This document shows, one piece after another, positions 40,501 to 64,000 of a stretch of DNA of 64,000 nucleotides. Every line of letters starts with the position of its first letter. Within the stretch, counting starts at the first letter, position 1. A model generated the notes under the pieces. That model did not search any database. It saw only the letters and a list, made by a program, of their open reading frames with translations, and was not told the origin of the DNA. The position numbers were made by a program, and so were the translations under genes. This DNA comes from Lachnospiraceae bacterium (GTDB lineage: Bacteria; Bacillota; Clostridia; Lachnospirales; Lachnospiraceae). The DNA lies in assembly GCA_017450065.1 (NCBI GenBank), contig JAFSYI010000084.1, positions 1 to 64,000 on the forward strand, in the 5' to 3' direction.

Positions 40501-40734
40501 TCATAATTGCGGAAGTAACTCGAGCAGCCTGATCGTTTCAACGTCTGTTGCCGTGAGACGTATATTGGAAACATATTCATTTCCGTCAGGATCCGTTACC
40601 CGCATTTCTACTACCGTTCCATCCTTAAGAGCCTTTCCCTTAAGCATCTCCAGAAAAGGCATTACCTTCGGGTGATCGGCGTTAAACATATCCATCCTCT
40701 TTTTTGCTTCGTTTTTGATCATTTTGTCCATCAT
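40501..40734 (-). CDS. 77-residue protein of unknown function
   Basis: Not recognised. A helical, charged first half (NEAKKRMDMFNADHPKVMPFLEML) precedes a beta-type stretch (GTVVEMRVTDPDGNEYVSNIRL) and a leucine-rich end. No signal peptide or cysteine. GGAGG lies 11 bases upstream. It starts 19 bases after the acyl-ligase stop and closes the acyl-ligase/ACP/condensation unit, so it is probably an accessory of that system (inference from position only), much as MbtH-like proteins help NRPS adenylation enzymes; it is not itself MbtH-like. Confidence 0.65.
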   Translation of the reverse strand: MMDKMIKNEAKKRMDMFNADHPKVMPFLEMLKGKALKDGTVVEMRVTDPDGNEYVSNIRLTATDVETIRLLELLPQL

Positions 40735-40753
40735 GGTTTATCTTTCCTCCAAC

Positions 40754-42283
40754 TTATAACAGCCTTCCCTTTTCTCCCGTCTGTATTCTCTTTACCTTTC
40801 TTGAAGTGGTCTTGTCAAACTCTTTATCCCTGAGTCTTAACCTCAGTATCCTCTTTGACTGCGGAACACTCTTGTTTATTTCTGCAACCTTCTTCTTAAA
40901 CAGCTCTTCCGCCTTATCCCTGAACTCCGGATAAGGATAGACCTCTGCCGTGATCTGTTCCTCTTCCGAATAAACAAGTATCTCCTGCATCCATTCAAGA
41001 CCGGCGAATTTATTCTCAAGCTCCTCCGGGGAAATATTCTCGCCGTTGCTTAAGATTATAAGATTCTTCTTTCTGCCGGTAAGGTAGAGACGCCTGTCCT
41101 TAACATATCCGAGATCTCCGGTCTTAAGCCAGCCGTCCTCCGTAAACATTTCCTTTGTCGCTTCATCATTCTTATAATATCCGAGCATGACAGAGGGGCT
41201 CTTAACCTGTATCTCGTCATCCTCGATCCTCACCTCGCAGCCCTTAACGATGATACCCACCTCATCTCCTATAGTAGGATCGTTAAGGCTTGATGATGAA
41301 ATGCGCGGTGAGCATTCGGTCATTCCGTACCCCTGAAGCAGCGGTACTCCCATTTTCTTATATGCCTTTATAAGATCCGGCGCAAGATAAGCGCCTCCGC
41401 AGAATATACATTTTAAGTTCTTTCCAAATACTGACCTTCCGACCAAAAGCATGGGAACAAGAGGCCTGGCCTTGTGGGCTGCCTGTATCTTTCTGTAGAT
41501 CGTCTCCACTATCATGGGCACGAGCAGTATCTTGGTCGGCTCGAACAGCTTGATGTTCTGAGCTATCCTCATTATCGAATCATTAATGCAGACAGTAACC
41601 CCGTACCTTATCGCGAGAAGGTAATCGCAGGTAAGACAGTAGGCATGATGTATTGGAAGCACCGATAGAATAACATCCGAACTGTCAGCCTCATTCTCGC
41701 AGCACAGTGCGTTATCCGTAAGATTCCCGTGTGAAAGCATGACTCCCTTGCTCTTACCCGTTGTTCCCGAGGTATAGAGGATGCAGGCACAGCTGTCTTT
41801 CGAGGGATGCACAGGCTCAATGGGTTCATTGGCCGAAAGGATCCCCGCAAGCTCATCTTCCTCACCGTTTAAGCATACATAGGTTTTAATGCCGGGACAC
41901 AGTTCCTTAAGCGTATCGATTATCCGCTTAAATCTTGAATCGTAGAAGAACAGCATTACATCGGCCCGGTTCAGATTATCGGCGACCTCTCCGGCGCTGA
42001 GCTGCGGATCTATGGGTACTGCCACTCCGCCTGAGAGCATGATCCCGAAAAGGCTCGTAAGATAGCCTATGCTGCTGGTCCCTATGAGCCCGGCTCTTAT
42101 TTCGCAGCCGTCTGCTTCCTTTGTAAGATATGACGACACCCTGCGTGCTTCCTCATAAAAGGTTCCAAAGCCTTTCTCCCTGAAGCCCTCGCCGGCCTTT
42201 TCCTTAAGAAAGGTCTTATCCCCGTATTCCCCGGCAGCAAAGCCGATCAGATCCTCAATAGTCTTAATATCTTCCACTTTCAT
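40754..42283 (-). CDS. AMP-forming acyl-CoA/acyl-ACP ligase
   Basis: 509 residues of the ANL adenylate-forming superfamily. P-loop CILYTSGTTGKSKGVMLSHGN (about 167-185), LQGYGMTECSPRISS (about 314), TGDLGYVKDRRLYLTGRKKNLI, and C-terminal catalytic Lys in the FDKTTSRKVKR stretch. It resembles long-chain fatty acyl ligases more than NRPS adenylation domains. It begins 3 bases after the acyl carrier protein gene, so the acyl-adenylate is most likely passed to that ACP. This could feed acyl groups to the condensation protein encoded upstream. Confidence 0.83.
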   Translation of the reverse strand: MKVEDIKTIEDLIGFAAGEYGDKTFLKEKAGEGFREKGFGTFYEEARRVSSYLTKEADGCEIRAGLIGTSSIGYLTSLFGIMLSGGVAVPIDPQLSAGEVADNLNRADVMLFFYDSRFKRIIDTLKELCPGIKTYVCLNGEEDELAGILSANEPIEPVHPSKDSCACILYTSGTTGKSKGVMLSHGNLTDNALCCENEADSSDVILSVLPIHHAYCLTCDYLLAIRYGVTVCINDSIMRIAQNIKLFEPTKILLVPMIVETIYRKIQAAHKARPLVPMLLVGRSVFGKNLKCIFCGGAYLAPDLIKAYKKMGVPLLQGYGMTECSPRISSSSLNDPTIGDEVGIIVKGCEVRIEDDEIQVKSPSVMLGYYKNDEATKEMFTEDGWLKTGDLGYVKDRRLYLTGRKKNLIILSNGENISPEELENKFAGLEWMQEILVYSEEEQITAEVYPYPEFRDKAEELFKKKVAEINKSVPQSKRILRLRLRDKEFDKTTSRKVKRIQTGEKGRLL

Positions 42284-42286
42284 GCT

Positions 42287-42517
42287 TTATTTGCCGCCCT
42301 TTTTCTTAATATACTCGCAAACATCACCTATCGTCGCTATCCCGGTAAGCTCTGTTTCGTCCACAGTGATTCCGAAGGCCTCTTCGAATTCACCCATCAT
42401 ACTCATCATGGAGAAAGAGCTGAGTCCCAGATCCTCCGCCAGTCTTGATTCCTCCGTCACCTCATCAAGATCAACCTCTGCATACTGTGCAAGTATTTCC
42501 TTTATTTTGTCTAACAT
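42287..42517 (-). CDS. Acyl carrier protein
   Basis: 76 residues starting at the ATG that follows AAGGAG; a longer in-frame start at 42562 is unlikely. Four-helix ACP pattern: KIKEILAQYAEVDLDEVTEES, then EDLGLSSFSMM. Ser34 is the predicted phosphopantetheine site; the canonical Asp-Ser-Leu reads Ser-Ser-Phe, an unusual variant. The strongly acidic helix II and III suit a dedicated carrier. It sits between the stand-alone condensation gene and the acyl ligase gene, forming an activation-carrier-transfer set. Confidence 0.85.
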   Translation of the reverse strand: MLDKIKEILAQYAEVDLDEVTEESRLAEDLGLSSFSMMSMMGEFEEAFGITVDETELTGIATIGDVCEYIKKKGGK

Positions 42518-42635
42518 GGCATTCTCCTTATCCCGTTTCATCTTATCTTTTAATTTGATCATATCTTCTCTGTTTTGAATTCACCCTCAGTATCCGGTCT
42601 TCATGAATACTGTACTTCATAAGGCACCCGGTATG

Positions 42636-44051
42636 TCACATCCAGTCAAGGATCTCACCGATGGTTATGGACGGATCCTCTATACCCTTAAATATGGCCC
42701 TGCACAGATAATAGTACAGCTTCTCAAGCTCGTCCTCGGACACTTCATTCTTCTGGTATTCAAAATGCACGCTCATTCCGTGGTCTGTAGGCCTGTGCAT
42801 AACCGTTACATATACATGCTGCATTGCAACGCCATTGGTATACCATCTGCTCTTATAATTGATCTCAGGAAGATTTATATGCTGTAATGAAGCAAGTGCA
42901 ACAGGCTGGTAGGTAAGTGTTGTACATTCGTAGCCTGCTCCCTGCGGTGCCTTGTAATGCTCACCGACCATACCCATGTAAAGTATGGGATCGAAGTTGG
43001 CATGTCTTAACAGCTCATTTTCCTTGGCCTGTACGATACGGAGCGCATCCATGAAGGTGGTCTTTGGCTTGATATCCGTACGCAGCGGCCAGAAATGGAT
43101 ACGTGTTCCGCCTGATTTCTGTTCAAGCAGCGTTCCTCTTCTGGCAACGGCATTCTTAAGGCTTATATCCGTTCTGTTATCCGAGAAATGCGAAAAAACG
43201 GTACGCAGTCCAAGAAGCAGCAGTGATGCCACAGGTACATTATTCTCCTTGCAGAAATCCAGTAACCTGTCCGTTGAATCCGCTTCCAGATCGTAGACCT
43301 TAATGGCTGCCTCAATATTTCCCGTCGGATATGCGGCTCTGAGCCTCTTCTTACCGGTCTGTTCACGCAGCTCAAGCAGTCTGTTCCTTGAACTGAACGG
43401 CGTATACATGGGTTCAGGCGCATCCAGCTGTCCTATCCAGTAATCCCTGTCCTTCTGCTGTTTCTCGCTGTTATCCTCATATTTAAGATCAAGCTCCAGC
43501 TGCTTTAAATAACTCATAGGCGGCTTGGGAGCCGGAGTATCCTCGAACATTCTGGAGCAGTAAAGCTGAAGGACATAGCCGTAGAAGGATGTGATCCCCT
43601 GGGAATCAAGCGTAAGATGCTGAACCTTCATGTACAGACCCGTATAACCGCCCGGAAGCTTTATCATCTTTATCTCGTTCATCGGACCGTTATCGATCTT
43701 AAAAGGGATCCTGGTCCAGTCCTCCATCCTCTTATGGGCATCATCCTCGTTCCAGTCCGAAAAATCAACCACTTCGATATCTCTGTCCTCTGCAGGGATC
43801 AGATACTGCATGAGCGTTCCGTCCTCCTGTACGCTGAACCTTAACCTCATACATTCGAACTTCTCATAGCCGTCATAAATGCATTCCTTAAGAACATCAA
43901 AATCAACGTCCGAGTATTCAAGGTAAAATCCCGTTCCAATGTTCAGAAGCTCCCATCTTTTACATGCGCTGACCGTGTAAAAATGGATACGCTGTGCTGC
44001 TGTGAGCGGATATGCCTGTACCACCGCACCGTTAATGGTTAGTTCTTTCAT
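42636..44051 (-). CDS. Stand-alone condensation-domain protein (acyl/peptidyl transferase)
   Basis: 471 residues, one NRPS-type condensation domain and nothing else. The catalytic loop is QHLTLDS: the second His (H145) and Asp149 of HHxxxDG are kept, the first His is Gln. A downstream DWTRIPFKIDNGPMNEIKMI stretch and the FWPLRTDI segment also fit the fold. Start at 44051 chosen for AAAGGAG 4-5 bases upstream. With an ACP and acyl ligase beside it, it could transfer a fatty acyl group to an amine, either on the NRPS-bound first residue or on another acceptor. PapA- or AtfA-like ester formation is an alternative. Confidence 0.78.
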   Translation of the reverse strand: MKELTINGAVVQAYPLTAAQRIHFYTVSACKRWELLNIGTGFYLEYSDVDFDVLKECIYDGYEKFECMRLRFSVQEDGTLMQYLIPAEDRDIEVVDFSDWNEDDAHKRMEDWTRIPFKIDNGPMNEIKMIKLPGGYTGLYMKVQHLTLDSQGITSFYGYVLQLYCSRMFEDTPAPKPPMSYLKQLELDLKYEDNSEKQQKDRDYWIGQLDAPEPMYTPFSSRNRLLELREQTGKKRLRAAYPTGNIEAAIKVYDLEADSTDRLLDFCKENNVPVASLLLLGLRTVFSHFSDNRTDISLKNAVARRGTLLEQKSGGTRIHFWPLRTDIKPKTTFMDALRIVQAKENELLRHANFDPILYMGMVGEHYKAPQGAGYECTTLTYQPVALASLQHINLPEINYKSRWYTNGVAMQHVYVTVMHRPTDHGMSVHFEYQKNEVSEDELEKLYYYLCRAIFKGIEDPSITIGEILDWM

Positions 44052-44093
44052 ATAACTCCTTTCCCGACCATCATATGTAGTCAAATAGTATAT

Positions 44094-45062
44094 TTATACC
44101 GTCAGTACTTCTTCAAGGAATTCTTTTTCCGTTTTTTCATATGTTTCCGTGTCTTCAAAGACACTTGATCCGTGTCCGCCTTCATCCACTATAAGCAGCC
44201 TCTTCTTACAGGTTGCCGACTCGTAATTCTTATTGCTCATCCAGGTCGGTACAAACTTATCCTTTCCTCCGTGAATGAAAAGTACGGGAACCTTATTGTC
44301 CTTAAGTGCCTCAATGGTCGAATAATCCCCGAACTTATATCCCGCAAGGAACTGCGAGTACACATCCCCTATCTCCATAAACGGAAATGACGGAACATGA
44401 TAATCCTTCTTCATGACATGGGCGAATATCTCCCTGGCCGAGGTGAAAGCACAGTCGGCTATCACGGCACTGACATGCTCCTGTACATACGGAAGTCCCA
44501 ATGCCATCAGTACGGTTGTAGCTCCCATGGAAGTACCGTGAAGGACATACTTCATATTATTTCCGAATCTGTTAATGCACCATGTCAGCCATTCTTCGGT
44601 GTCAAACCGGTCGAGCACACCGAAGCCAACGTATTTTCCCTCGGACTGTCCGTGAGCGCGGAGATCCAGCAGCATCACCTCGTAGCCCATCTCGTGGAAA
44701 AATTTCGCATGGGTCATATTATCCATCGCCTTACTGGTAAAACCGTGATGAAGGATAATGCATTTATCTGTCGGCACTCCCGCCGGAAGATAGAACGCAT
44801 GGAGCTTAAGCCCGTCTCTGCTCTGTATATATACTTCCTCATAAGACTGCTGCTCGGCCCACTGTGCTACAGGAGCCATCTTCGTCTCGTATTCCTTCAT
44901 TTTTTCCGCATCGGCGAATTCCGATATTATTGCCTCACTGGTTCCCCTGGGTCTTATAAGAGTCTTGCTTATGAGCACACCGGCTCCCACCATTCCACCG
45001 ACTGCCATTCCGGCTGTCCCTACCGCAGCCAGTGTTCCCACAACTTTGGTTTTTCTATCCAT
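44094..45062 (-). CDS. Membrane-anchored alpha/beta hydrolase
   Basis: 322 residues. A Gly/Ala-rich N-terminal hydrophobic segment (about 10-32) probably anchors it. The hydrolase fold has the oxyanion loop LHHGFTSKAMDN, nucleophile elbow HGTSMGAT (Ser), Asp in FIHGGKDKFVPTW, and catalytic His in DEGGHGSSV. This belongs with the esterase/BAAT-like or peptidase S9-type serine hydrolases. First gene of the condensation/ACP/acyl-ligase unit, with a good AAGGAGG site. It might act as a thioesterase, deacylase or self-protection hydrolase for the cluster product. Confidence 0.8.
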   Translation of the reverse strand: MDRKTKVVGTLAAVGTAGMAVGGMVGAGVLISKTLIRPRGTSEAIISEFADAEKMKEYETKMAPVAQWAEQQSYEEVYIQSRDGLKLHAFYLPAGVPTDKCIILHHGFTSKAMDNMTHAKFFHEMGYEVMLLDLRAHGQSEGKYVGFGVLDRFDTEEWLTWCINRFGNNMKYVLHGTSMGATTVLMALGLPYVQEHVSAVIADCAFTSAREIFAHVMKKDYHVPSFPFMEIGDVYSQFLAGYKFGDYSTIEALKDNKVPVLFIHGGKDKFVPTWMSNKNYESATCKKRLLIVDEGGHGSSVFEDTETYEKTEKEFLEEVLTV

Positions 45063-45199
45063 TTTCTGCCTCCTTTTTATCTTAAGGCTGCGAAGCCTCT
45101 ATGACCATTTACGTTTCCCGGAATCAGCATTACACCGTTATATATCCCGGGGTATGCCATACATTTCACGTACCGGTAATGTCCTTAATTATCAAGATA

Positions 45200-45228: not shown

Positions 45229-45287
45229 CATTAAAATAACCGATTCAGCAGGTGCGGAACAGAGATCCATACAGTGTCCGATTTTTC

Positions 45288-45321
45288 AAAAAAAAAGAAC
45301 CGGACATAAAATGTCCGGCTC
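45288..45321 (-). terminator. Rho-independent terminator ending the exporter/peptide unit
   Basis: On the minus strand GAGCCGGACAT and ATGTCCGGTTC form an 11-bp stem (one G-T pair) with a TTT loop, followed by nine T. It comes 24 bases after the stop of the 86-residue gene. Confidence 0.92.
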
Positions 45322-45344
45322 ATATACATATCCAATATTTATTT

Positions 45345-45605
45345 TCAGCTCTCGAAAGGAGTTTTATCCATAAGGCTGACCGCATTCATCATACCCATCT
45401 GCATCTGCATCCCCAGAACATCGGCATAATTCTTCGTTTCGCCCCTCTTTAACGGATTCTCATTCTCACCACTCGTAAGTCCGGAAAAATCTGTCTTACC
45501 GGAAGTAACATCACTTCCTATGGCATCTATCTTATTAAGACTTGCCGAGCTTACTCTGTTGGTATTATAGATGTAAGGACTTGCTCCCACCGCACCTATT
45601 CTCAT
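45345..45605 (-). CDS. 86-residue protein of unknown function next to leader peptides
   Basis: Not recognised. Start at 45605 because AAGGAG lies 5 bases upstream. The N-terminus has MRIGAVGASPYIYNTNRVSS; the middle is Ser/Gly/Asn rich; the end has a Met-rich segment (LGMQMQMGMMNAVSLM). There is no cysteine, no hydrophobic signal and no double-glycine cleavage site. It is the last gene before a strong terminator and follows the two double-glycine peptide genes. It may be another exported small protein, an accessory, or a housekeeping protein that happens to lie here. Confidence 0.65.
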   Translation of the reverse strand: MRIGAVGASPYIYNTNRVSSASLNKIDAIGSDVTSGKTDFSGLTSGENENPLKRGETKNYADVLGMQMQMGMMNAVSLMDKTPFES

Positions 45606-45691
45606 AGCGTCTCCTTCTCTATACGTCACATTAGCTCTTATATGTAACTATGATAGCTTATGTGGCAAAAAAAGTCAACCCTTTTTTGTAC

Positions 45692-45967
45692 TCAGCAGGC
45701 TCCCGATCCGAAGCTTCCACCGCTTACCAGCTTGGAGCCCGGAATATCCTCGAGATTATTGATATCCGAACCGCCAAGCAGCGTTGCCTTGGGCCTTTCT
45801 CCGTTAAGTATAGCATTTTCTGCCTTAGGCCTCTTCCCGTTCTTACTCTTGTATACCAGGTCATTTCCTATACCTGATATGGCACCTGTACCAAGAAAAA
45901 CACCACCGTTTACATCATTCAGATCACTATCACTTATGGCTCTGTTCATCTTTTCATTCTCGTTCAT
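45692..45967 (-). CDS. Double-glycine leader peptide, 69-residue core (candidate C39 substrate)
   Basis: 91 residues. The leader ends ISDSDLNDVNGG (11-22); counted back from Gly22 as -1 it has I-12, S-11, D-8, L-7, V-4, G-2, G-1, the classic C39-peptidase recognition pattern. The 69-residue core is Gly/Ser/Asn rich, contains two related segments starting NGKRPKAE (43) and NGERPKAT (55), and ends in a lone Cys91. AGGAGG lies 8 bases before the ATG. It sits in the peptide transcript just after two NHLM-type exporter genes. No lanthionine, radical-SAM or YcaO modification enzyme is in the window, so it may be exported unmodified. Confidence 0.78.
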   Translation of the reverse strand: MNENEKMNRAISDSDLNDVNGGVFLGTGAISGIGNDLVYKSKNGKRPKAENAILNGERPKATLLGGSDINNLEDIPGSKLVSGGSFGSGAC

Positions 45968-45998
45968 AGTATTATCCTCCTACTGTTATGTACTATGG

Positions 45999-46371: not shown

Positions 46372-48561
46372 CTATTTTTCCTTATTGTCCACAAGCTGCC
46401 GTTTGACAAGATTAGTGAAGAACCCGTTAAGCGCCATAAGCTCGTCATAGGTTCCATCCTCAATTATCTTACCTCCGTCAAGTACGATTATCCTGTCGCA
46501 GTGACGGATCGTAGAAAGCCTGTGAGCAATGACGATACGGGTGCATTTAAGGCTCTCAAGTGAATCCGATACTATCTTCTGGGTTATGTTGTCAAGCGCT
46601 GAGGTAGCTTCATCAAACATAAGTATCCTGGGTTTGGGCGCTATCGCCCTCGCGATCATAAGCCTCTGACGCTGTCCGCCGGAAATGCCGCCCTGCCCCT
46701 CTGATATGATCGTATTCATCCCCATGGGCATGCGCCTTATATCATCACCCATACCGGCCATATCGGCTGCTTCCCAGGCCTCATCAAGGGTAAGCAGAGG
46801 CGCAGATATTGTGATATTCGAAAAAATGTCTCCCTGGAACAGACTGCTGTTCTGCATCACAACACCGATATTGCGCCGGAGGGATTTAAGATCCATAGCG
46901 GTTATATCCTTTCCGTCATAATAAACGGCGCCCTTCTGCGGCTTTTCAAAACCAAGCAGTATCCTCATCAGTGTGGATTTACCGCAGCCTGTCTTACCGA
47001 CTATTGCCACATACTGCCCGGGACGTATTCTAAGTGAAATATCATCAAGCACGTTCGGCATATTGTCTTTATATCTGAAGGAAATGTTATTTATCTCTAT
47101 TCCACCCCTCAGCTTCCTTACGACAGGCCTGTCCGCATCCACCTCAGGCTGTGCGTCGAATACCGGTTTTATAAGCCTCAGCGTGGGACGAATCTGGGCT
47201 ATGATAACAGCGATCGATGCCAAAGACATAAACGCCCCGCTGACCATGCTGTAGGCTGTATTAAAAGCCATGTAATCCGCGACCTTCACACCGCTCCGTA
47301 TCGCACCGAAATAAAGAACCACGGTTCCTATAAGAGATATTCCCAGGGTCAGTGTTGAGCTAAGCTTAAGAAACATGGGCGGATCGTATAAATACTTTGC
47401 CGCTTTTACATACTGCTCGCTCCACTTGGCGAAGGCTCTCTTCTCCGCTCCCGCATTTTTGATCTTGGCCACCCCGCAGATCAGGGAATAAACCATACCG
47501 TCTTCCTTATTGGATTCACGCATCATGTTCTCCGATACACCCATCTGTCGCAGTGCGGTAACCGTCGATACGATAAACGTGAGAAAGGTTATGGTCATTG
47601 CCGGAGCCGTCAGTGCAGGTGCATATGTCATGACCTGACCGATATAAATAAGCGAAAATATAGCAGTAAGTCCTATAGACAGTATGGAATCAAAGATCGT
47701 CTCAACCAGCATATTAACATTGTCAAGCCTGCCCGCCAGCTCTCCTGCGCTGTAGTCCTTAAAAAAATTAACAGGCAGTGACAGGATGCGCATGATCATG
47801 GCACTCTCAACGCTGAGGGTTATCCTTGTCGTGATGTTTTTGTTGACAAGCTCCCTGATCACGGCCAGAAGATTATTGCCGATGCTGACGCAAAGAAAGG
47901 TCAGCATAGTGCATGCAAGAAGCATTGAGTTGGAGTACTTTATTACATCACCGTAAAGGAAATGTGATATTGCCGGCGATACAAGGCCGAGAAGTGCACC
48001 GGCCAGCGCAACCCCGAGCATCAGTACATAATCCTTCATCCTCAGCTGCATAACCATAAAGGTCAGCAGATCCGAAAATTTGATCTGTCTCAGCGGAAGA
48101 GGCGCATAAAAGCATATTGCATCCTCATCTATTTCTTTCTCATTGGCATTTGTGATACGTCTGGTCTCACCTGTCAAAGGATCATTATAGCAGTATCCGC
48201 CTGCCTTTCCCGGAAGGATAGCTATAATGCTCCCGTCCTTTTTGCTTCCGAGCATGGCGCCCACCGCATCCTTATGCCAGCCGGGTGTCAGCTTTACGGG
48301 ACGCCGCATTATACCCGAAGGCCTTAGAAGGTATTCCAAAGCCTCATCCATATCATCCATATCATACGGAAGCTCCTGAGGCTTTACACGATAGTACTTT
48401 AATATATCGCTTATTGCCTCGCCCGACAGCCTGCTGCCCTGTGACAGCCCTGTCATTATCTTATCTGTGCTGACGATGTTTACCATCCTTGCCACGGCAT
48501 CGGTAAGCATTTCGTCATCACTTATCATTCTCTGTTTTATCTGTTCTTCAAACCAACCCAT
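46372..48561 (-). CDS. NHLM-type ABC exporter without peptidase (ABC2)
   Basis: 729 residues. An N-terminal soluble region (about 1-150) with LTPGWHKDAVGAMLGSKKDGSIIAILP resembles that of the second NHLM bacteriocin ABC protein; it lacks C39 catalytic residues. A six-segment membrane domain (about 165-465) follows, then an NBD: VAIVGKTGCGKSTLMR (Walker A), GISGGQRQRLMIARAI (signature), ILMFDEATSALD (Walker B) and IVIAHRLSTIRHCD. It starts 31 bases after the peptidase-containing exporter gene, so the two probably form a heterodimer that exports leader-bearing peptides or the NRPS product. Confidence 0.86.
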   Translation of the reverse strand: MGWFEEQIKQRMISDDEMLTDAVARMVNIVSTDKIMTGLSQGSRLSGEAISDILKYYRVKPQELPYDMDDMDEALEYLLRPSGIMRRPVKLTPGWHKDAVGAMLGSKKDGSIIAILPGKAGGYCYNDPLTGETRRITNANEKEIDEDAICFYAPLPLRQIKFSDLLTFMVMQLRMKDYVLMLGVALAGALLGLVSPAISHFLYGDVIKYSNSMLLACTMLTFLCVSIGNNLLAVIRELVNKNITTRITLSVESAMIMRILSLPVNFFKDYSAGELAGRLDNVNMLVETIFDSILSIGLTAIFSLIYIGQVMTYAPALTAPAMTITFLTFIVSTVTALRQMGVSENMMRESNKEDGMVYSLICGVAKIKNAGAEKRAFAKWSEQYVKAAKYLYDPPMFLKLSSTLTLGISLIGTVVLYFGAIRSGVKVADYMAFNTAYSMVSGAFMSLASIAVIIAQIRPTLRLIKPVFDAQPEVDADRPVVRKLRGGIEINNISFRYKDNMPNVLDDISLRIRPGQYVAIVGKTGCGKSTLMRILLGFEKPQKGAVYYDGKDITAMDLKSLRRNIGVVMQNSSLFQGDIFSNITISAPLLTLDEAWEAADMAGMGDDIRRMPMGMNTIISEGQGGISGGQRQRLMIARAIAPKPRILMFDEATSALDNITQKIVSDSLESLKCTRIVIAHRLSTIRHCDRIIVLDGGKIIEDGTYDELMALNGFFTNLVKRQLVDNKEK

Positions 48562-56000: not shown

Positions 56001-59000
56001 TCCTCCTGTCTCTGTCTGAACACCTCATGAACCTTTGTATCTGCTGTCCATTTTATTCTGACAGGTACGGTATTGATAAACATACCCACTGCACTTGTGA
56101 TCCCTTCCGGTCCGTTCTCACGTCCGGAGACTGTCTCGCCGAATACAACATCGTCCGTATTATTCTCAAAACCAAGCAATATTCCCCAAACACAACCAAA
56201 AAAACATCCTGTAGTGATACGGTTTTTTTCTGCGAATCTGTGTATGCGTTCCTTACTTTGTCCGTCTATAGTAAAGCTTACAAAATCAGCAACACCGCTC
56301 CTTCCTTCATTATCTTTACCGTAGAATATCCCTGTCCCTTCGTCTATACCTTCAAGATATTTGTTCCATGTTTCAAGCTTACCATATACATGCGAACCTG
56401 CTCTGTTTCTTAAGAAATCCGCAAATGAGCAGCCCAATCTGCTCTCCCTTTCCGCTGTATCAAACAGATACTCCGGACTTACTCCACGCATAAGCATTTG
56501 ATAGTAATTCATAAAAGTATCGATAAGGATTGAAAAGCTCCATCCGTCAAGAATACAGTGATGCGACGTAATCAGCACTTCCATATCCGCATCATGTATG
56601 GCTTTTTCCGGAATAGTCACCCTGAACATAATCTCTGAAGAGGGATTCATGCCACGCTCCAGATCTTCCTGAACCATCTCATCAAAACCCACGGCTTTGG
56701 AATATATTATTTCAGGCTTTATCCTATCTTCCTTCAGGATTATCTGAACCGGCTGTTCAAGACCGCTGTAAAGCATCTGTATACGCAGTACATCAAAACG
56801 GACAAACACTGCCTGCAATGCTTTTTCAAAATGAGAGCCGTCCCACTCCCCCTTTATGGTAAGTCTGTCTTGAAGAAAATAGGCACTGCTGTCAGGTTCA
56901 ATCATGTATCTGTACAGCATTCCCTGCTGAAGTGGCGTGAGCGGACTTATCATCTCTATATCCTGTGGCGAATATATATCTGTTATTATTCTCCACTCAT
57001 CCATTGTAAGTATCCGCCCCACACAAAAATCAGACGGAGTATATATACGATCATTACGGGAGCTGCTTCGGACAATGGTCGTGATCATGCTTACATAATT
57101 GTCAACGATGCGTTCTATCCTGCCTGCCTCAAATACCTTGTCGTACAAGCACTCTATCTTAAAACCTGCTCCTGTATCCCGTATATTTACGGAAATAGTC
57201 TCAGGATCCACATTTACGGGACTGATCTCTACTCCGCCATACTCATCGGTCCATTCTATGACCGAATCGTGCTTTACCTTCTCACTGCCAAGATAATTAA
57301 ACACAAGCCCGCCAAGCTCCGTAAGGTCATCAAACATAAGACCATACCCTATACCTGAATTCGGAATCCCCGCCATTAACTCCTTAAGCTCTATGATCTG
57401 CTCATCGATCAGATTGTGGACATGTAGTATTACAGGATATACTGCAGTAAACCATCCCACCGTACGCTCAGTATGCGGCAGTATTCCTGCATCCGTACGT
57501 CCGTGACTCTCCATCTGAAGCAGTAAGACTTCTACGCCATCCGAATCAAATACCGATTTACAAAGAACTGCCATCAGAACTGTCTCCGGACCGGCTCCGT
57601 AACGAAGTTGAGCAAGTGTCTTCAGCTTGTGGGCGGTCACCTTATCCACAGTTCTTGAGACAGTACCATATCCCTTTTCGGTGTCACTTCCATTTCTCTT
57701 ATACGAGTCCAACCATTCTGATATATTGTATCTTGAAGATTCCAGTTCTTCATGAACCGACATCCAATACTCTTTCTCGGATCTAAACGCATTATTGCTT
57801 CCGTATTTCCACAGGCTTTCCGACCATTCCCCAAAGGATACAGTGCTGTCGGGGAGCAGCTTTAGTGACTCTTCATAGCCTCTGCTGTATAACTTTTTCT
57901 TTACCGCCTGTTCGTATAAAGTATTAATATCTTCCGTTATAATATCCCAGGATACCTCATCTATAACATAATGATGAAATGAAAGGAATAGATAAGTCTT
58001 CTTTCCGTCTTCAAATACCGCAGCACCCATCACTTTACCAGACATAAGATCCATTGAGGAATTAATGTCATTCATCAGCTTTTCACGTTCCACGGAAGAT
58101 ATATTTCCATATACTTTCAGTGTGAGTACCGGAGCCTCCCTGGCATCTCTTATGCCTATGTTTCCGTCATTCTTAAGGTACATCCTCAGCATACCATGGC
58201 AATAGATCAGTCCGTTCAGAGCCCATTCAAGCGAATGTATATCCACTTTACCCTTAACAAGAAATACTGTGCTTTGATTGTAATATGAAGGCTCAGGCAT
58301 ATGTGCTGCCGCAAACATCCGCATAACGGGCGTAGGTCTGACTGTATCATATTCCCGATATGATATTTGCTCATTCCTTTTCAGAGCAGCCGCCATACCC
58401 TTTATGCTATGGCTCTTTAAAACAGATGAGGCATTTATGGCATATCCCTTTTCTCTGAGTAATGCAACAATACGTATCGCCTTGATTGAATCGCCGCCAA
58501 GAGAGAGAAAATCATCGGAAACACTTACATTCTTCAGCCCCAGAACCTTCTCAAAGGACATACAACAATCCCTCTCTTCCTGTGTTACAGGGGCGCAATA
58601 GTCATTCATTATTGTCTGTCTGTCAATAACATCTCCCGGATCCGGCAAAAGATTCCGGTTTATCTTTCCGTTTATAGTAAGCGGTAATTCTTCAAGTGGA
58701 ACAAGTACCGAAGGCACCATATATTCCGGAATCCTGTTCTTAAGTTCTTTTCTTATTCTCTTAAGTCCGGGATCTTCCGGGTCTTTCGGAACATAATATC
58801 CACACAACAGCTTCTCGCCCTTGCTGTCTTTAACAATAACTACGGCATTCCTGACCGAAGCAATGGAACGCATCGCCGATTCCACCTCTTCAAGTTCTAT
58901 CCTGAACCCGCGTATTTTGACCTGATTGTCTAAACGGCTTATAAATTCAATATTTCCGTCAGGCAACATCCTTGCAAGATCGCCGCTCCTATACAGCTTT

Positions 59001-62000
59001 CCATCTGTAAAAGGGTCATCGGTAAATCTCTCTGCTGTCAGATCAGGTCTGTTGTGATAACCTCTGGCTACCTGTTTACCTGCTATACACAATTCTCCTG
59101 GAACTCCGATACCACAGAGTTCATTTCCTTGCATTATGTATATATTCAATCCGGGCGCAGGCCGCCCTATAGGTACGTTCTCTCCTTTTAAATCCGTCTC
59201 ATCACTGAGCACTCCCTCTCTTGCAAAAACATAACTCGATGCATTGACAGTTGTCTCCGTAGGTCCATAAGTGTTATAAACAGTTCTTCCCCTGCTCCAT
59301 GCAAGAAGTAATGACCTGTCAGGAGCTTCACCCCCGACATCCAGCAACCGCAGGCTCTTAAAATTATCAGAAGAAAGAAGTCTTAAGTATCCGGGGGTCA
59401 GAGAAGCCACTGTGACCTTATTATCCTCGCAATAACGTGCTAAAGCATCCGGATCATTGTTAAGTCCTTTGGGAATAAGACAGAGTGTACCACCAACTGT
59501 AAGAATATGGAATATGTCCCATACTGACTGATCGAAAACAAAATTTGCAAACTGAAGTACCGTATCTTCCTTATCAAGATCGTATATCTTCCCATAGGCA
59601 TCCAACATCGCCGAAAGCTGTCTGTGCTCCACCACAACACCCTTCGGTTCTCCTGAAGTACCTGATGTATAAATCATATATGCTATCCTGTCCATACTTA
59701 CTTGCGGCAGTTCTTCAGTCCCATTGGTTTTACCAACGGTATCATCCCGAACATCCCCGTCATATGATACCGTCAGAACTGTAATACCAATCTTATCCGC
59801 CTCTTCCTTTATAAAAGACGGCAGCTCATATCCGCATACGACCATCGCATGCGGCATACAGTCTTTAAGCAGATACACGATCCTTTCCGCTGGATATTCC
59901 AAAGACACCGGCACATACCCGGCTCCGGAACGTAATATCCCGAGTATCGATGCTATCATTCCAGTGCATCTGTCAGACAAAAGGATAACTCTTAAGTCTG
60001 TTGTAGCTTCATCGTTCTTGCCCCGATTCATCCTGCCGACATAAGTCCTGTCGGTCACATATGATCTCACAAGAGCTTCCGCTATCCTTCCCGATCGGAT
60101 CCACAGTGTCTCGTAACTGACAACTTCATTCCGAAATATAACCGCTGTCTTGTCGGGACATCCCACAACATGATCTTCAATGCGCTTGATGACCGTATTC
60201 TGTCTGTACGGACATTCATCTCCGGCTGCCAGTCTTAACAATTCCTTTCTCTCCGCAGCATCCGTCATTGATAATGTATCAATATCCCGATCCGCCTTAT
60301 TGATACACTCTCTGATCAGATTCACATAATGTCTGCTCATAATGCTGACAGAATCCGATCTAAACAATTTCATATCGTATTCAAAGAAATAATTGTAGCA
60401 TCCTTCATCTTTACCGGTTTCCAGAGTGATATCGTACATAGGTCTTTCGTCTGCGGGGAACGTAACCCATGCTCTCCTGTTGTTGATATCTGAAAGAGAT
60501 GTCCCGAAATCCCTCATGGTAAAGAAATAATCAAACAGAAGATGATCATGCGATGTTCTTGTATATCCGCCAAGTGCCATAAAATCAGCGGCTATATCCT
60601 CGATTGCAATATGCTTGAATGTATGACAATCAAGAATTCTCTCCTTTACCTGTCTTAAAAGTCCGGAAAAGGTATCTCCTTCCCTGATATCTGTTAAGAC
60701 AGGTACGGTGCATGCAAACATTCCCTGCATTCTTTCGGTGTATTGGTCGCTCCGTCCGTCCATGACGGTTCCAGTGATAAATCTGCGTTGACCCGAATAC
60801 TTATACAGAAGCACAAAATAAACTGCAATAAAAAACATATAAGGAGTAACTCCGCTGTTCTTACATAGTACATCGATACTCCCCGAAAGCTCCTTCTCTA
60901 TTATCCCATATTCATGCCCCGCCTTCCCCGGATACAACGATCTTGCAATACTATCCTGAGGAAGCTGAAGCTCCTGAATATCATCATACCCAACAAAAAG
61001 CTTTCTCCATGCATCACGACCCTTATTGTATGCTTTTGTCTCTGTCTGCCTTCTTTCCCATGCCGCATATTCTTTCTGATGAAGCCTTGGAAGATCGATC
61101 TCCTGACCGTTATACAAGGCAACAAATTCCGAAGCAAACATCGAAGCACCAACACCGTCATTTATTATATGGTGCCAGTAGAATATAAGCCGATTGCCCT
61201 CATACTTCCACCAAAACAGCGGAGCTTTATCTAGCATAAATCCTATCGGTTCCGTCACGACCCTCGAACTCTCCACCGCTCTGTCTATCCATTCGTAGGA
61301 CGCCTCTTGTATCTTCTGAACAAATTTTCCGTCAATGATCTGAAAGCTGCTCCTTAAGCTCTCATGTATCCTGAACAGATCTGACAGGACTTCCATAATC
61401 CTTACAATGTCAAGCGGTTCCTCGTTATTTATCACAGCACTTATAAGATATGTCGGATCATCATCAGCAAGAAGCGCCTGTGCTGTATATATTCTCTCCT
61501 GTGCCTTACTTATCTCATAGTATTCCTGCTCCGGCAGAGTCGAATCACTCATCGGTTCATATTCCAATATGTCCGTATTCTTATGCTTTTCTTCAACCTT
61601 AAGGGCTAATGCGACCACCGTTGGATTCTCCATAACATCTCTGACACTAAGCCGCACAGACAATTCTTTCTCAATACTATAAATAAGACCGGCAATAAGG
61701 ATCGAATTACCGCCTATAAGCATGAAATCATCATTTCTGCCTACTCTTTCGGTATTAAGCAGTAAGGCATATATCCCGGAAATCTTTCTCTCGGTTTCAT
61801 TTTCAGGTTCTTCATAAGCTGCCTTATAATTCTCAAAGGATGGTTTCGGAAGCCTGTCATAATCAATCTTCCCGTTTGTATTAAGCGGGAAGCTGTTAAC
61901 CCTTATGAAAAACGACGGAAGCATATAAGAAGGTTTTTTCAACAGTATGAACTGCGAAAGCCTGCCTTCATCTATTATATCTTCGGAAATGTAGTACGCC

Positions 62001-63334
62001 GTAAGAATCATCTGGGAACCAAGCTTTATTGCTGTAACAACCGCATCCTCAATATCTTTAAATTCCCTTAATGCTGCCTCAACCTCGGCCGGTTCTATAC
62101 GAAATCCACGTATCTTTATCTGCCTGTCAGCTCTTCCCATGAATTCAAGCAGACCGTCGCTCCTTCTAAATGCAAGATCACCTGTATGATACAGTCTTTC
62201 ATATCCTGCTCTTTTTGAAAACGGATTGTCGGTAAAGGCCTTCATTGTTAGCTCCGGACTGTTTAAATAACCCGCGGCCACATGCAATCCGCTTATACAC
62301 AACTCTCCTACAGTATTATCGGGAACCTCATTACCATGCTCATCAAGGATATAAATCTCCACGTCACTGATAGGTCTGCCTAAGGGAACCTTCTCGGGAT
62401 AACTCTCCTTTACCGGAAACATGGTCACAAAAAGCGTACACTCGGCAGGACCGTACCCGTTATGCAGAGTATATCCCTCCGGCGGATCTACAGACGTAAG
62501 TGCCTCTCCACCCACTGTAAGGTGACGCAGCGAATGATTCTTAATACTTATCGCGAACTGTCTTCCAAGCTGCGTGGTCATTGTTACATGCGTTATTACG
62601 TTGTCTTCAAAGAATGAATTTAATGCCAATAGATCTGTTCTGATATGATCCGGTATAATATATACTGCCGCTCCGGCAGTATACGGCAGAAGAAGTTCTG
62701 CAATGGCAAGATCGAAAACATAGCTCGGATGCTGCCCCATCCTGCAGTCCGCGTCCACTTCATAATAGTCCGCATACCACTTGGCAAATGAAAGTATATT
62801 TCCATGTGTGAGCATAATACCCTTGGGAACCCCGGTGGAGCCTGATGTATATAGAATAACAAAGAGATCCTGCTCCATTATATCCGGCCACCCATACCCG
62901 TCTTCGTCCGGAAGACTTACAATATCTTCAACATACAGGAGCCTGCGGTTCTTTCCAGTTATGTCTTCGGACAGAAGATGCCCGTTTTCATGTGTGGTTA
63001 TAATAAACCCGGTATCAGCGTTCTCTATCATAAAGTCGATACGCTCCACGGGATATGATGCATCAAGCGGCTGGTATGCCGCTCCCGACCTGAGTATACC
63101 GAGCGAAGCTATGGACATATACTCATTTCGCGGTACAAGAACAGAGACAACACTTCCCCTGCCTACCCCGCATTTATTAAGATATGCCGCCAACTTACCC
63201 GTAATCCTGTCAAGTTCTCCGTAGGTATAACTTCTGCCGACATAATTAAGTGCCTCTTTATTTTCAAATCTATGTATTGACTCACGTATCAGGTCAAGTA
63301 TTGAGTGTACTCCGTTTGACATCATAATACCCAT
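53024..63334 (-). CDS. Three-module non-ribosomal peptide synthetase (A-T-C-A-T-E-C-A-T-TE)
   Basis: 3436 residues. A1 about 20-510 (TSGSTG near 162), T1 Ser544 (IGGNSI); C2 about 610-1040 (HHIINDG, H721-G727), A2 (TSGTSG near 1223), T2 Ser1616 (LGGDSI); epimerisation domain about 1660-2100 (HHYVIDEVSW from H1787, FNYLG); C3 about 2135-2570 (HHCILDG from H2258, preceded by the LTPLQQGML entry typical of D-accepting C domains); A3 (TSGTTG near 2732), T3 Ser3108 (LGGSSI); thioesterase about 3165-3420 (GYSQGG, Ser3249). All core motifs and the three NGK lysines are present, so it should be active. Predicted product: a tripeptide with a D residue in the middle, released by hydrolysis or cyclisation. 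There is no starter C domain. No phosphopantetheinyl transferase is in the window. It follows the substrate-binding protein gene by 22 bases. Confidence 0.93.
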   Translation of the reverse strand: MGIMMSNGVHSILDLIRESIHRFENKEALNYVGRSYTYGELDRITGKLAAYLNKCGVGRGSVVSVLVPRNEYMSIASLGILRSGAAYQPLDASYPVERIDFMIENADTGFIITTHENGHLLSEDITGKNRRLLYVEDIVSLPDEDGYGWPDIMEQDLFVILYTSGSTGVPKGIMLTHGNILSFAKWYADYYEVDADCRMGQHPSYVFDLAIAELLLPYTAGAAVYIIPDHIRTDLLALNSFFEDNVITHVTMTTQLGRQFAISIKNHSLRHLTVGGEALTSVDPPEGYTLHNGYGPAECTLFVTMFPVKESYPEKVPLGRPISDVEIYILDEHGNEVPDNTVGELCISGLHVAAGYLNSPELTMKAFTDNPFSKRAGYERLYHTGDLAFRRSDGLLEFMGRADRQIKIRGFRIEPAEVEAALREFKDIEDAVVTAIKLGSQMILTAYYISEDIIDEGRLSQFILLKKPSYMLPSFFIRVNSFPLNTNGKIDYDRLPKPSFENYKAAYEEPENETERKISGIYALLLNTERVGRNDDFMLIGGNSILIAGLIYSIEKELSVRLSVRDVMENPTVVALALKVEEKHKNTDILEYEPMSDSTLPEQEYYEISKAQERIYTAQALLADDDPTYLISAVINNEEPLDIVRIMEVLSDLFRIHESLRSSFQIIDGKFVQKIQEASYEWIDRAVESSRVVTEPIGFMLDKAPLFWWKYEGNRLIFYWHHIINDGVGASMFASEFVALYNGQEIDLPRLHQKEYAAWERRQTETKAYNKGRDAWRKLFVGYDDIQELQLPQDSIARSLYPGKAGHEYGIIEKELSGSIDVLCKNSGVTPYMFFIAVYFVLLYKYSGQRRFITGTVMDGRSDQYTERMQGMFACTVPVLTDIREGDTFSGLLRQVKERILDCHTFKHIAIEDIAADFMALGGYTRTSHDHLLFDYFFTMRDFGTSLSDINNRRAWVTFPADERPMYDITLETGKDEGCYNYFFEYDMKLFRSDSVSIMSRHYVNLIRECINKADRDIDTLSMTDAAERKELLRLAAGDECPYRQNTVIKRIEDHVVGCPDKTAVIFRNEVVSYETLWIRSGRIAEALVRSYVTDRTYVGRMNRGKNDEATTDLRVILLSDRCTGMIASILGILRSGAGYVPVSLEYPAERIVYLLKDCMPHAMVVCGYELPSFIKEEADKIGITVLTVSYDGDVRDDTVGKTNGTEELPQVSMDRIAYMIYTSGTSGEPKGVVVEHRQLSAMLDAYGKIYDLDKEDTVLQFANFVFDQSVWDIFHILTVGGTLCLIPKGLNNDPDALARYCEDNKVTVASLTPGYLRLLSSDNFKSLRLLDVGGEAPDRSLLLAWSRGRTVYNTYGPTETTVNASSYVFAREGVLSDETDLKGENVPIGRPAPGLNIYIMQGNELCGIGVPGELCIAGKQVARGYHNRPDLTAERFTDDPFTDGKLYRSGDLARMLPDGNIEFISRLDNQVKIRGFRIELEEVESAMRSIASVRNAVVIVKDSKGEKLLCGYYVPKDPEDPGLKRIRKELKNRIPEYMVPSVLVPLEELPLTINGKINRNLLPDPGDVIDRQTIMNDYCAPVTQEERDCCMSFEKVLGLKNVSVSDDFLSLGGDSIKAIRIVALLREKGYAINASSVLKSHSIKGMAAALKRNEQISYREYDTVRPTPVMRMFAAAHMPEPSYYNQSTVFLVKGKVDIHSLEWALNGLIYCHGMLRMYLKNDGNIGIRDAREAPVLTLKVYGNISSVEREKLMNDINSSMDLMSGKVMGAAVFEDGKKTYLFLSFHHYVIDEVSWDIITEDINTLYEQAVKKKLYSRGYEESLKLLPDSTVSFGEWSESLWKYGSNNAFRSEKEYWMSVHEELESSRYNISEWLDSYKRNGSDTEKGYGTVSRTVDKVTAHKLKTLAQLRYGAGPETVLMAVLCKSVFDSDGVEVLLLQMESHGRTDAGILPHTERTVGWFTAVYPVILHVHNLIDEQIIELKELMAGIPNSGIGYGLMFDDLTELGGLVFNYLGSEKVKHDSVIEWTDEYGGVEISPVNVDPETISVNIRDTGAGFKIECLYDKVFEAGRIERIVDNYVSMITTIVRSSSRNDRIYTPSDFCVGRILTMDEWRIITDIYSPQDIEMISPLTPLQQGMLYRYMIEPDSSAYFLQDRLTIKGEWDGSHFEKALQAVFVRFDVLRIQMLYSGLEQPVQIILKEDRIKPEIIYSKAVGFDEMVQEDLERGMNPSSEIMFRVTIPEKAIHDADMEVLITSHHCILDGWSFSILIDTFMNYYQMLMRGVSPEYLFDTAERESRLGCSFADFLRNRAGSHVYGKLETWNKYLEGIDEGTGIFYGKDNEGRSGVADFVSFTIDGQSKERIHRFAEKNRITTGCFFGCVWGILLGFENNTDDVVFGETVSGRENGPEGITSAVGMFINTVPVRIKWTADTKVHEVFRQRQEDYYTMQDALDVPLDRAGTDGIKASDLISTHYVYENFPETDNNDRYQYEMIHEEVDYPISVSVEEGSSFTVSIQYDKTRYDRRYIDLLVGRYMHIIDQITSDLEHKMGELARIPTDERRMMLGDMAGIKCESPNQTVLDMIRKTVMKNPDAKAVSGLDSELSYRELWILSARLAGRIGYGGERFIALFCDRGVGMIISMIAAFMSGGAYVPLDPDYPDERIKYIIKDCGAETILRYTDAETDGREELFTELGLRVIDVDVRANSHDEVDEELVLPSGLSGDRLAYMIYTSGTTGEPKGVEVGHSALAGMVISNIGYYGFFDMPVLQAANYVFDASLQEIFVTLGSGGTVCTIPRSVLGSAEDTAEFCRNKGVRILITTNALLQALDPAEFGDLKIVCAGGDAANAETFAIWSKYTQILVNDYGPTEACVNATVHTYETGDSRYIPIGTPYRGKRVYVMQGDELCGIGQKGEICIGGNGLARGYHNRDELNRQKFTDNPYEDGQIYHSGDIGVYGLDKELRFLGREDDQIKIRGFRIETGEIENCIRKYEPVKEVAVINRKDGDREPYLVAYITSEEELDLRQLKNRLLKRLPAYMVPSVIERVDELPLTINGKLDIKALPTPKEMSGFSAPVGFFEQLVAGLFRKILRIERIGRNDSFFELGGSSIDVMKLVSGLHRYHIRVSDVAGYPTPALLGERMLNNWNGSERNNNGMMLLRDGRIDRPSIFCVPPSGGMSLCYIPFVEDISTEGRIFALTDDKYNRFGTMSLDELTGYDPYSENLWVDTVRKYTDSVVTEFKDGDILVGYSQGGNVAHMIAGILEKQGYTVGQIIMLESVPYRDEGGVYDKDKERSERLRTAVAIFTGSNVDDNSEDHMEEIQDVTYLRNRLKALMGEESSDTLLHSLYETYLVYSANVCNELHTEGRVMAKIDSILLASDSGDDAVLYTLSGDNPWASYTYTMGRTFIISCDYDEHLVFLSKYRSVISEIVKKLIMK

Positions 63335-63356
63335 TCGCTGCTTAGCCTTTCTATCA

Positions 63357-64000
63357 TTACCGGTATATGTAATCTGCTATCTGAAGCTTCTCGAACGGTA
63401 TTTCGTACCCTATTCGTAGTGCAGTAGTATAATTGACACCTATTCTCGGCGTAACCTCACAAACCATATCGAGCTGATCGAAGGGGACCTCCTCCTCCGC
63501 ATATCTTCTAAGCTGCTTAACAACATGATAAGCCGATTCGGCGCAGTCGGTAAGAGTAACACCAAACAATACTCCGTTCTTTACCGGAATAAGCTCGTCC
63601 TGTGCCAATGTTTTTATACCTGCAGGAATAACCGAATCATCCAGAAGTTCCTGCATTTTAGTATCATATTCAATGGAAGCCACCGTCACAAACAGACAGT
63701 CTATCCCTTCATTTACCAGTTTTCTGTATGCATTCTTCAGTACTTCATAGTATCTGTCATAATCATCATCGCTTACAGGTTCATTTACGTATTCATAAAC
63801 CACTTCAAATCCATATTCCCTTGATTTTTCTTCAACCACATCAATAGCCGAATAGATATATGCATCCTCAGAATCCTCATATACGACTCCCAGCTTTTTA
63901 AAACCAATAAATTTATATCCTGCATCAAGCTGTCTTTTGTAAGTATCTTTATCCAACAGAGCATATGAATTATCAGTATATCTTTCGGTCTCACTTTTTA
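63357..64000 (-). CDS. ABC-type substrate-binding protein, TrpX/ABC_sub_bind-like (5' end outside window)
   Basis: The frame stays open to the window edge, so the N-terminus and any lipoprotein signal are missing; about 214 residues are visible. The pattern KKLGVVYEDSEDAYIYSAIDVVEE, CLFVTVASIEYDTKMQELL and the C-terminal IGVNYTTALRIGYEIPFEKL matches the ABC_sub_bind family (TrpX-like), where the closing segment normally reads like INLKTAKALGITIP. It ends 22 bases before the NRPS, suggesting one transcript. It may take up a precursor, or bind the product or a related peptide. Confidence 0.7.
   Translation of the reverse strand, partial: KSETERYTDNSYALLDKDTYKRQLDAGYKFIGFKKLGVVYEDSEDAYIYSAIDVVEEKSREYGFEVVYEYVNEPVSDDDYDRYYEVLKNAYRKLVNEGIDCLFVTVASIEYDTKMQELLDDSVIPAGIKTLAQDELIPVKNGVLFGVTLTDCAESAYHVVKQLRRYAEEEVPFDQLDMVCEVTPRIGVNYTTALRIGYEIPFEKLQIADYIYR

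Follow-up and report, generated by a model that had tools for sequence, protein, structure and literature searches.

Three units, an NRPS cassette, an NHLM exporter with two double-glycine proteins and a fatty-acid-amide set, probably stacked at one chromosomal site in a Lachnospiraceae genome

Introduction

A stretch of 64,000 nucleotides from a Lachnospiraceae bacterium (assembly GCA_017450065.1, contig JAFSYI010000084.1, positions 1 to 64,000; hereafter the window) carries, between 40501 and 64000, a nonribosomal peptide synthetase (NRPS), an ATP-binding cassette (ABC) exporter of the NHLM type with two double-glycine (GG) proteins, and a free-standing acyl ligase, acyl carrier protein (ACP) and condensation (C) domain. 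A preliminary description had proposed that these genes form one joint pathway, and that the gene order of relatives should be compared to check it. We made this comparison and found that relatives carry the genes as three separate units. We estimate a probability of about 0.8 that these are three autonomous units stacked at one chromosomal site.

The closest described counterparts of the exporter are the NHLM exporters of NHLP/Nif11 bacteriocins. The exporter in the window resembles them in that both ABC subunits score above curated cut-offs, a C39 domain is present, and double-glycine cargo adjoins. It differs in that the HlyD subunit is cut to 79 amino acids (aa), the two cargo proteins (pepA and pepB) match no leader family of Pfam or NCBIfam, and no enzyme modifying ribosomally synthesized peptides (RiPPs) was detected in the scanned proteins of the 40.5-53 kb stretch. 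A word search of the main text of a Hungate1000 bacteriocin paper (PMC13289728) gave neither NHLM nor NHLP.

The acyl genes resemble the Oaa fatty-acid-amide (FAA) clusters of gut Clostridia, described for Coprococcus eutactus. According to the accessible part of that report (PMC13142362), the stand-alone C domain OaaC, crystallized as PDB 12KH, condenses onto free amines and carries the motif (D/H)HxxxDS (second His >99%, Asp highly conserved), and fatty acid amides of gut bacteria act on host receptors. In the window, as in the portion of the Oaa system described there, a free-standing C domain, an ACP and an acyl adenylating enzyme stand in a row and the HxxxDS part of the motif is kept; unlike there, the first motif residue is Q, not D or H, and an alpha/beta hydrolase gene stands in front.

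Small NRPS products such as pyrazinones have been described as signals, which offers a parallel to the NRPS in the window; the accessible parts of the sources do not mention a partner-switching phosphatase, a binding protein or a transporter with extra segments for them, as found here. Searches of the literature on NHLM with NRPS, SpoIIE with NRPS, modules of binding protein, transporter and SpoIIE, and NRPS signals of gut Clostridia, with subscription journals mostly outside their coverage, found no description of this arrangement.

Results

Gene content of the region

All genes of 40501-64000 lie on the minus strand, in the order given below. The genes named in the preliminary description were all found on that strand, including the two double-glycine proteins and the separate ligase, ACP and C domain set. 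It does not name the E domain of the NRPS, the SpoIIE phosphatase, the 79-aa HlyD-like protein or, past the window edge, the MFS transporter and the full-length binding protein.

63357..64000, minus: C-terminal part of the extracytoplasmic binding protein SBP (unit 1); full gene at contig 63357-64517, 386 aa; no Pfam match of its own
53024..63334, minus: NRPS (unit 1), 3436 aa, domain order A-T-C-A-T-E-C-A-T-TE by Pfam and motifs
51153..52946, minus: SpoIIE-family phosphatase with N-terminal ectodomain (unit 1); Pfam SpoIIE 2.2e-47
50913..51152, minus: short HlyD-like membrane protein, 79 aa (unit 2); NHLM_micro_HlyD positions 1-46, 28.1 bits versus cut-off 156.2
48593..50887, minus: NHLM ABC1, C39 peptidase/permease/ATPase (unit 2); TIGR03796 912 bits, Peptidase_C39 1.2e-34
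46372..48561, minus: NHLM ABC2, permease/ATPase (unit 2); TIGR03797 718.7 bits
45999..46274, minus: pepA, double-glycine protein with a CxCG...CxxC zinc-ribbon-like core (unit 2); kept beside the exporter in G138, G124, G154 and G142
45692..45967, minus: pepB, double-glycine protein with conserved C-terminal VSGGxF..G.C (unit 2); alignment of four homologues, also in G142
45345..45629, minus: p94, small conserved gene, 94 aa (separator); promoter-like site before, terminator-like hairpin after
45297..45321, minus: terminator-like hairpin separating p94 from the acyl set; stem of 11 bp, followed by a T-run
44094..45062, minus: alpha/beta hydrolase (unit 3), by Pfam
42636..44084, minus: FaaC, free-standing C domain, motif QHLTLDS (unit 3); PDB 12KH (OaaC) 2.7e-112
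42287..42562, minus: ACP (unit 3); PP-binding 1.7e-13
40754..42283, minus: FaaA, fatty acyl adenylating enzyme or ligase (unit 3); AMP-binding 4.6e-57
40501..40734, minus: 77-aa protein ending unit 3; match only in G138 among compared loci, no family above cut-off

On the contig past the window edge lie the remainder of SBP, the gene of a 756-aa major facilitator superfamily (MFS) protein that is extended by long additional segments at its N terminus (the ecto-MFS protein), and that of a second SpoIIE protein (SpoIIE2). An Rfam scan of 36-64 kb gave no match.

The tight spacing on which the joint pathway had been based was measured correctly (22, 77, 0, 25 and 31 bases), but it is limited to the run SBP-NRPS-SpoIIE-HlyD-ABC1-ABC2. 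The gaps after ABC2 are 97, 31 and 62 bases, followed by 282 bases, with the hairpin, ahead of the acyl set.

The NRPS has three modules, as reported earlier, with three AMP-binding, three Condensation-type and three PP-binding matches and one Thioesterase match in Pfam. The motifs gave the order adenylation (A), thiolation (T), C, A, T, epimerization (E), C, A, T, thioesterase (TE). Motifs of the C, E, T and also the TE domains were all present, and the second Condensation-type match is the E domain, by its motif HHYVIDEVSW. The first domain is an A domain (residues 17-357), without the starter C domain of a lipopeptide NRPS. The predicted product of unit 1 is a tripeptide, X1-(D)X2-X3, which the TE domain would release. 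A further condensation-type protein is encoded elsewhere in the genome (C22:151304-152239, within a 427-aa open frame).

Relatives carry the three units separately

We compared the window genome (G000; other G numbers are comparison genomes and L numbers fetched loci) with 120 genomes of the family and 37 of the genus, both sets including it, with 80 NHLM loci of a named genome collection, and with extra fetched loci. In the genus set, the thresholds were E <=1e-80 for NHLM ABC1, E <=1e-20 for FaaC and >=40% identity for an NRPS orthologue. The collection loci had flanks of <=10 kb, many ended by contig edges, and two of them, L127 and L128, are contigs of G124 and G154, respectively; these two overlap with the genus set and are not independent.

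Orthologues of the NRPS were found in six other genomes, five of the genus (G138, G124, G127, G120 and G149) and one of another genus (G734). With the window genome, 6 of the 37 genus genomes have the orthologue, and any NRPS match occurs in 17, those six included. A SpoIIE gene lies 3' of the NRPS in all six relatives. G000, G124, G120 and G734 have MFS, SBP, NRPS and SpoIIE in this complete order, as does G138 across two contigs; the G127 contig ends inside SBP, and G149 shows NRPS and SpoIIE only. The gene after SpoIIE in G120 encodes an RsbW-like ATPase. In G149 (C285, L257) a stop interrupts the NRPS gene, which is read as two frames.

Each unit was found without the others. G127 has SBP, NRPS, SpoIIE, p94, a histidine kinase (HK) and a response regulator (RR) contiguously, with no exporter or acyl gene beside them. 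G734 has unit 1 (MFS 67%, SBP 64%, NRPS 49% and SpoIIE 60% identical to the window) among unrelated flanking genes, with no NHLM or acyl gene nearby. The exporter with both peptides occurs without the NRPS in G154 (a genome 82% complete), and a short contig of G142 has part of ABC2, then pepA-pepB-p94-HK-RR, also without the NRPS. Among the 80 collection loci, this NRPS was present in one (L127) and FaaC in none. NRPS, NHLM and peptide genes were absent from 24 of the 25 other FaaC loci, the exception being G138, and acyl genes were not found in the compared stretches of G124, G127, G734, G142 and G154. Besides G000 and G138, eight genomes have both ABC1 and FaaC (G029, G058, G094, G112, G131, G132, G135 and G143), always on different contigs, which in draft genomes means merely that the two are not close. 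Independent occurrence of the NRPS and the exporter genes in relatives, which the preliminary description had itself named as grounds against its proposal, is what these genomes show, and the joint pathway is not supported.

The acyl set resembles a known fatty-acid-amide cluster

FaaC matched crystallized OaaC with E 2.7e-112 over residues 24-480. Its motif, QHLTLDS, keeps the second His, the Asp and the Ser and deviates at the first residue (Q). The set thus has the parts of an FAA cluster: an OaaC-related free-standing C domain with a variant of the motif, an adjacent ACP and a free-standing acyl adenylating enzyme. FaaC was found in 21 of the 120 family genomes and 6 of the 37 genus genomes, the window genome included in both. 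At the 20 other family loci (6-20 kb fetched for each), hydrolase, C domain, ACP and ligase stand directly in a row in 14, and C domain, ACP and ligase are all present in 19. These loci contained no NRPS, peptide or NHLM-type gene; at three of them an ABC ATPase matched distantly (26-30% across some 220 residues), none of the NHLM type. The genus FaaC loci besides that of G138 (L260-L263) have acyl genes only. A scan of viral contigs with FaaC found no relative.

The boundary between the exporter and the acyl set is marked by p94, which looks like a separate small gene closing off the exporter unit. The p94 protein is 71-97% identical in G138, G124, G127 and G154 and 73% identical in G142. The hairpin after it (45321-45297) has a z-score of -3.92, and 2 of 200 shuffles were equally good. 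The exact core of this hairpin occurs also in G138, though the scan of G138 listed no terminator there, and hairpins lie 3' of p94 in G142, G127 and G124 (in G124 the site is listed on the opposite strand). A promoter-like site, TTGACT-17-TAnnnT, precedes p94 (45678-45650 in G000) and recurs in G127, G124 and G138; none was listed there in the scan of G142. Such sites are pattern matches, and their number in the window scan was near chance (32 versus 25.8 expected from shuffles, sd 5.2). The gene stands ahead of the HK/RR pair, with new genes inserted on either side of it. In G142, HK follows p94 after 138 bases, so the position of the acyl set between p94 and HK in G000 and G138 reads as an insertion.

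Because of this insertion-like position, the homology to OaaC and the 24 of 25 FaaC loci free of NRPS and NHLM genes, we regard the acyl set as a probably autonomous FAA cluster of the known OaaC kind. In it, a fatty acid would be activated, loaded on the ACP and coupled to a free small amine, giving a predicted fatty acid amide. We consider it very improbable that the acyl set instead lipidates the NRPS product or the peptides for secretion by the NHLM exporter. Such a pathway would fit the single strand shared by all the genes in G000 and G138, and the G138 NRPS, which lacks the first A-T module and begins with a C domain, could in principle accept an acyl donor. The G000 NRPS begins with an A domain, and FaaC is related to a free-amine user; the hairpin and the 282-base gap ahead of the acyl set, the FaaC loci elsewhere and the five compared relatives without acyl genes also argue against it. 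Two specific forms were considered and rejected. A lipid start of NRPS synthesis supplied by the acyl set (lipoinitiation) was rejected for lack of a starter C domain in G000, and acylation of pepA or pepB by FaaC because the peptides occur without neighboring FAA genes in G124, G154 and G142.

The exporter, its two peptides and the NRPS upstream

The classification of the exporter as a C39 pair of the NHLM type was borne out, both proteins passing their NCBIfam cut-offs: 853.3 bits for NHLM_micro_ABC1 and 709.4 bits for NHLM_micro_ABC2. The HlyD subunit (TIGR03794) fell below its cut-off here, and no protein in the whole draft genome was above it. The HlyD partner is usually short (median 158 aa, range 47-224 in 77 loci). 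An NHLM ABC1 match was present in 34 of the 37 genus genomes, the window genome counted. The window genome has a second NHLM exporter pair (contig C90:10148-12304, L091), with an ABC1 about 55% identical to that of the window and its own short HlyD.

The pair pepA and pepB is conserved in G000, G138, G124 and G154 and recognizable in G142. Neither protein matched an NHLP or Nif11 leader family in Pfam or NCBIfam, and neither did the G124 homologues in NCBIfam; the GG motif was identified by reading. Matches to a pepA profile (E <=0.01), mostly weak, occurred in 18 of the 37 genus genomes, and at eight of nine such places fetched there was no neighboring NHLM gene. The short HlyD, ABC1 and ABC2 of unit 2 would cut pepA and pepB at GG and export them. 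In pepB and its homologues there is a second GG six or seven residues before a C-terminal Cys, so that a short C-terminal peptide could be released.

Several observations weigh against a simple stacking of autonomous units. The order NRPS-SpoIIE-HlyD-ABC1-ABC2-pepA-pepB is kept together in three species (G000, G138 and G124), despite protein identities with G124 of only 63-82% there, which goes beyond a single accident. In G000 and G138 not a single base separates the SpoIIE gene from the HlyD gene, and in both of these genomes the FAA set lies between p94 and HK. Two NRPS-bearing genomes, G120 and G149, could not be scored for NHLM since a contig edge is reached first, and all the close comparisons are on draft genomes (G000 and G138 are 88-89% complete, with contamination of 3.4-5%). 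Finally, terminator-like sites in the region were fewer than in shuffles (4 versus 9.2); the terminator pattern scan is therefore of little weight, and the weight rests on the stability and recurrence of the hairpin.

The shared order and the abutting genes would also fit the NRPS and the NHLM exporter as one functional pair, through export of the product or through joint action of product and peptides, with the acyl set a bystander; in G138, G124, G154 and G142 this exporter subgroup is likewise accompanied by both GG peptides. We think such a pair unlikely. The NRPS unit has its own MFS protein and is free of NHLM genes in G127 and G734, whereas the exporter and the same two peptides are free of the NRPS in G154 and G142. 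In addition, a block containing the NRPS is swapped in G138 at about 50% identity while the exporter is still about 90% identical (see below). A SpoIIE gene upstream of the exporter is also common in its own right: of 55 loci with sufficient flank (from the L127-L206 set), 23 have a same-strand SpoIIE gene that ends <=3.5 kb upstream of NHLM ABC1, L127 and L128 among them. These counts suggest that NHLM export is more widely linked to partner-switching control. The NHLM exporter as default exporter of the NRPS product was rejected, as unit 1 has its own MFS.

Given the same order in G000, G138 and G124, co-transcription is plausible, and NRPS, SpoIIE and NHLM genes are probably co-transcribed in these three species yet chemically independent. 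In the species of the window, units 1 and 2 would probably be on one transcript, with p94 and then unit 3 as separate transcripts. Joint function of NRPS and NHLM beyond shared transcription is doubtful.

A replaced block within unit 1

We compared G000 and G138 at fourfold-degenerate sites (silent sites) and at the protein level. Silent sites were 83-100% identical over the first 200 residues of the MFS protein, 7-77% (mostly <55%) from there through SBP and the NRPS up to SpoIIE residue 300, and again 76-96% in the SpoIIE phosphatase domain. The corresponding protein identities were 97-100%, about 38-81%, and 84-100%. Because identity falls inside the MFS gene and recovers inside the SpoIIE gene, these alignments mark a block as replaced between the two genomes, with breakpoints inside those two genes; it extends from MFS across the NRPS as far as the SpoIIE ectodomain. 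The exporter, peptide and acyl genes lie outside it. Silent sites were 58-80% identical overall in the exporter, acyl and HK/RR genes, and 52-55%, over few sites, in the two peptide genes. Some caution is needed, since SpoIIE2, outside the block, is also less conserved in its first half (silent sites 33-76%; protein 86-96%).

The replaced block and the stacking might both be chimeras of metagenome assembly, both drafts being contaminated to the extent given above and the G138 NRPS being split across two contigs. We give this explanation very little credence. Both breakpoints lie inside contigs, and the two contig ends overlap by 141 identical bases. The NRPS-NHLM order is repeated on one contig in G124, and the run of exporter, peptides, p94 and HK is repeated in G142.

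The pattern between G000 and G138, replacement of a synthesis gene together with the sensor end of a putative receptor, the signaling domain being conserved, recalls the ComQXPA pherotype locus of Bacillus subtilis, as described in the accessible part of one report (PMC6334282). Unlike that locus, the one here has an NRPS in place of a ribosomal peptide and a SpoIIE phosphatase in place of a kinase. Joint replacement was not seen in the pair G127 and G149, in which the NRPS is 97-98% identical at silent sites and SpoIIE diverges past residue 50, with silent-site identity as low as 18% by residue 350. Co-inheritance of a putative signal and its receptor thus appears to hold in G000/G138 and to fail in G127/G149.

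Variation in the predicted product was judged from the A-domain selectivity positions, numbered by what we take to be the GrsA scheme. For A1, which is absent in G138, the six genomes have three pocket forms, one shared by four of them and one each in G000 and G120, and the A2 pocket has three forms in seven genomes, five of them identical. The A3 pocket has six forms in seven genomes: DAQIVADVN, DAQIVVDVN, DAFAVADVN (two genomes), DALHVLDVH, DAWGIADVN and DAYSIVDVN. No substrate could be named with confidence from any of these codes.

A recurrent module with changing enzymes

To follow SBP more widely, we used a search of 397 family genomes (E <=1e-5; 10 with a match) and a profile search of 392 genomes of the order (E <=1e-20; 15 with a match), the window genome counted in each. 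Together these gave 22 places besides that of the window, all of which were fetched. An MFS gene was at or near SBP in 20 of the 22 (in G079 the two are fused, in G194 one gene lies between them, and in G588 the MFS gene is broken), confirmed by Pfam in 11 and by BLAST in the rest; L278 and L279 have SBP without MFS. The SBP-homologous part of the G079 fusion has a weak match to ABC_sub_bind (23.1 bits versus cut-off 25.9). SpoIIE was in the cluster at 17 of the 22 places (on the opposite strand in G076), and all nine that were checked further by Pfam were confirmed; the places without it are L278, L279, L329 and the short contigs L331 and L339. RsbW-like ATPases occurred in five places and STAS proteins in three.

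The enzymes beside this core varied: formyltransferase-like in eight places, alanine racemase with a 478-490-aa protein in three, a radical SAM/aminomutase-like protein with a D-Ala-D-Ala-ligase-like ATP-grasp protein in two, GH3 in two, an NRPS in one (G734) and none of these in six. The formyltransferase-like label is weak, resting on BLAST to L282, which has a modest Pfam match; of two others scanned, one was barely above the cut-off and one had no match. Four close pairs of the formyltransferase-like type had no comparable block swap, and SBP was the most variable part in two of the four.

Two further arrangements were seen. L281:7011-10454 encodes a single 1147-aa protein that joins ecto-MFS and SBP, which is evidence that the two can work together. 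At L329:3217-5910, inspection by eye showed, on the opposite strand beside the MFS-SBP pair, two small radical-SAM-like proteins along with two genes for Nif11-like precursors.

Since SBP, MFS and SpoIIE are constant while the enzyme changes, the sequences suggest a make-export-and-sense module. In unit 1, the MFS/SBP pair would handle the tripeptide outside the cell, and the SpoIIE ectodomain would sense an outside cue. One tentative reading, which we hold to be more probably wrong than right by a wide measure, is that MFS-SBP-NRPS-SpoIIE is a self-sensed signaling cassette. The signal would be a tripeptide with a near-constant second, a slightly varying first and a lineage-specific third position; it would be transported or displayed by ecto-MFS and SBP and recognized by the SpoIIE ectodomain, which would drive an RsbW/STAS partner switch. 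The cassette would be one of a family pairing the same chassis with formyltransferase-like enzymes, alanine racemase, aminomutase-like enzymes with ATP-grasp ligases, or GH3, each making a private signal. The G127/G149 pair, with its nearly identical NRPS and differing SpoIIE ectodomain, speaks against a self-sensed signal. The module is equally compatible with control of a metabolite used in defense or nutrition.

Discussion

Separating the region into units averts a false entry as a lipidated NRPS/RiPP hybrid, and the acyl set can be filed under the known fatty-acid-amide system of gut bacteria. Unit 1 is of lasting interest, as a recurrent and little-noticed module in which a partner-switching phosphatase, a transporter and a binding protein are linked with a small-molecule enzyme. 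Should modules of this kind turn out to make signals, they would represent a testable class of private communication for uncultured gut Clostridia.

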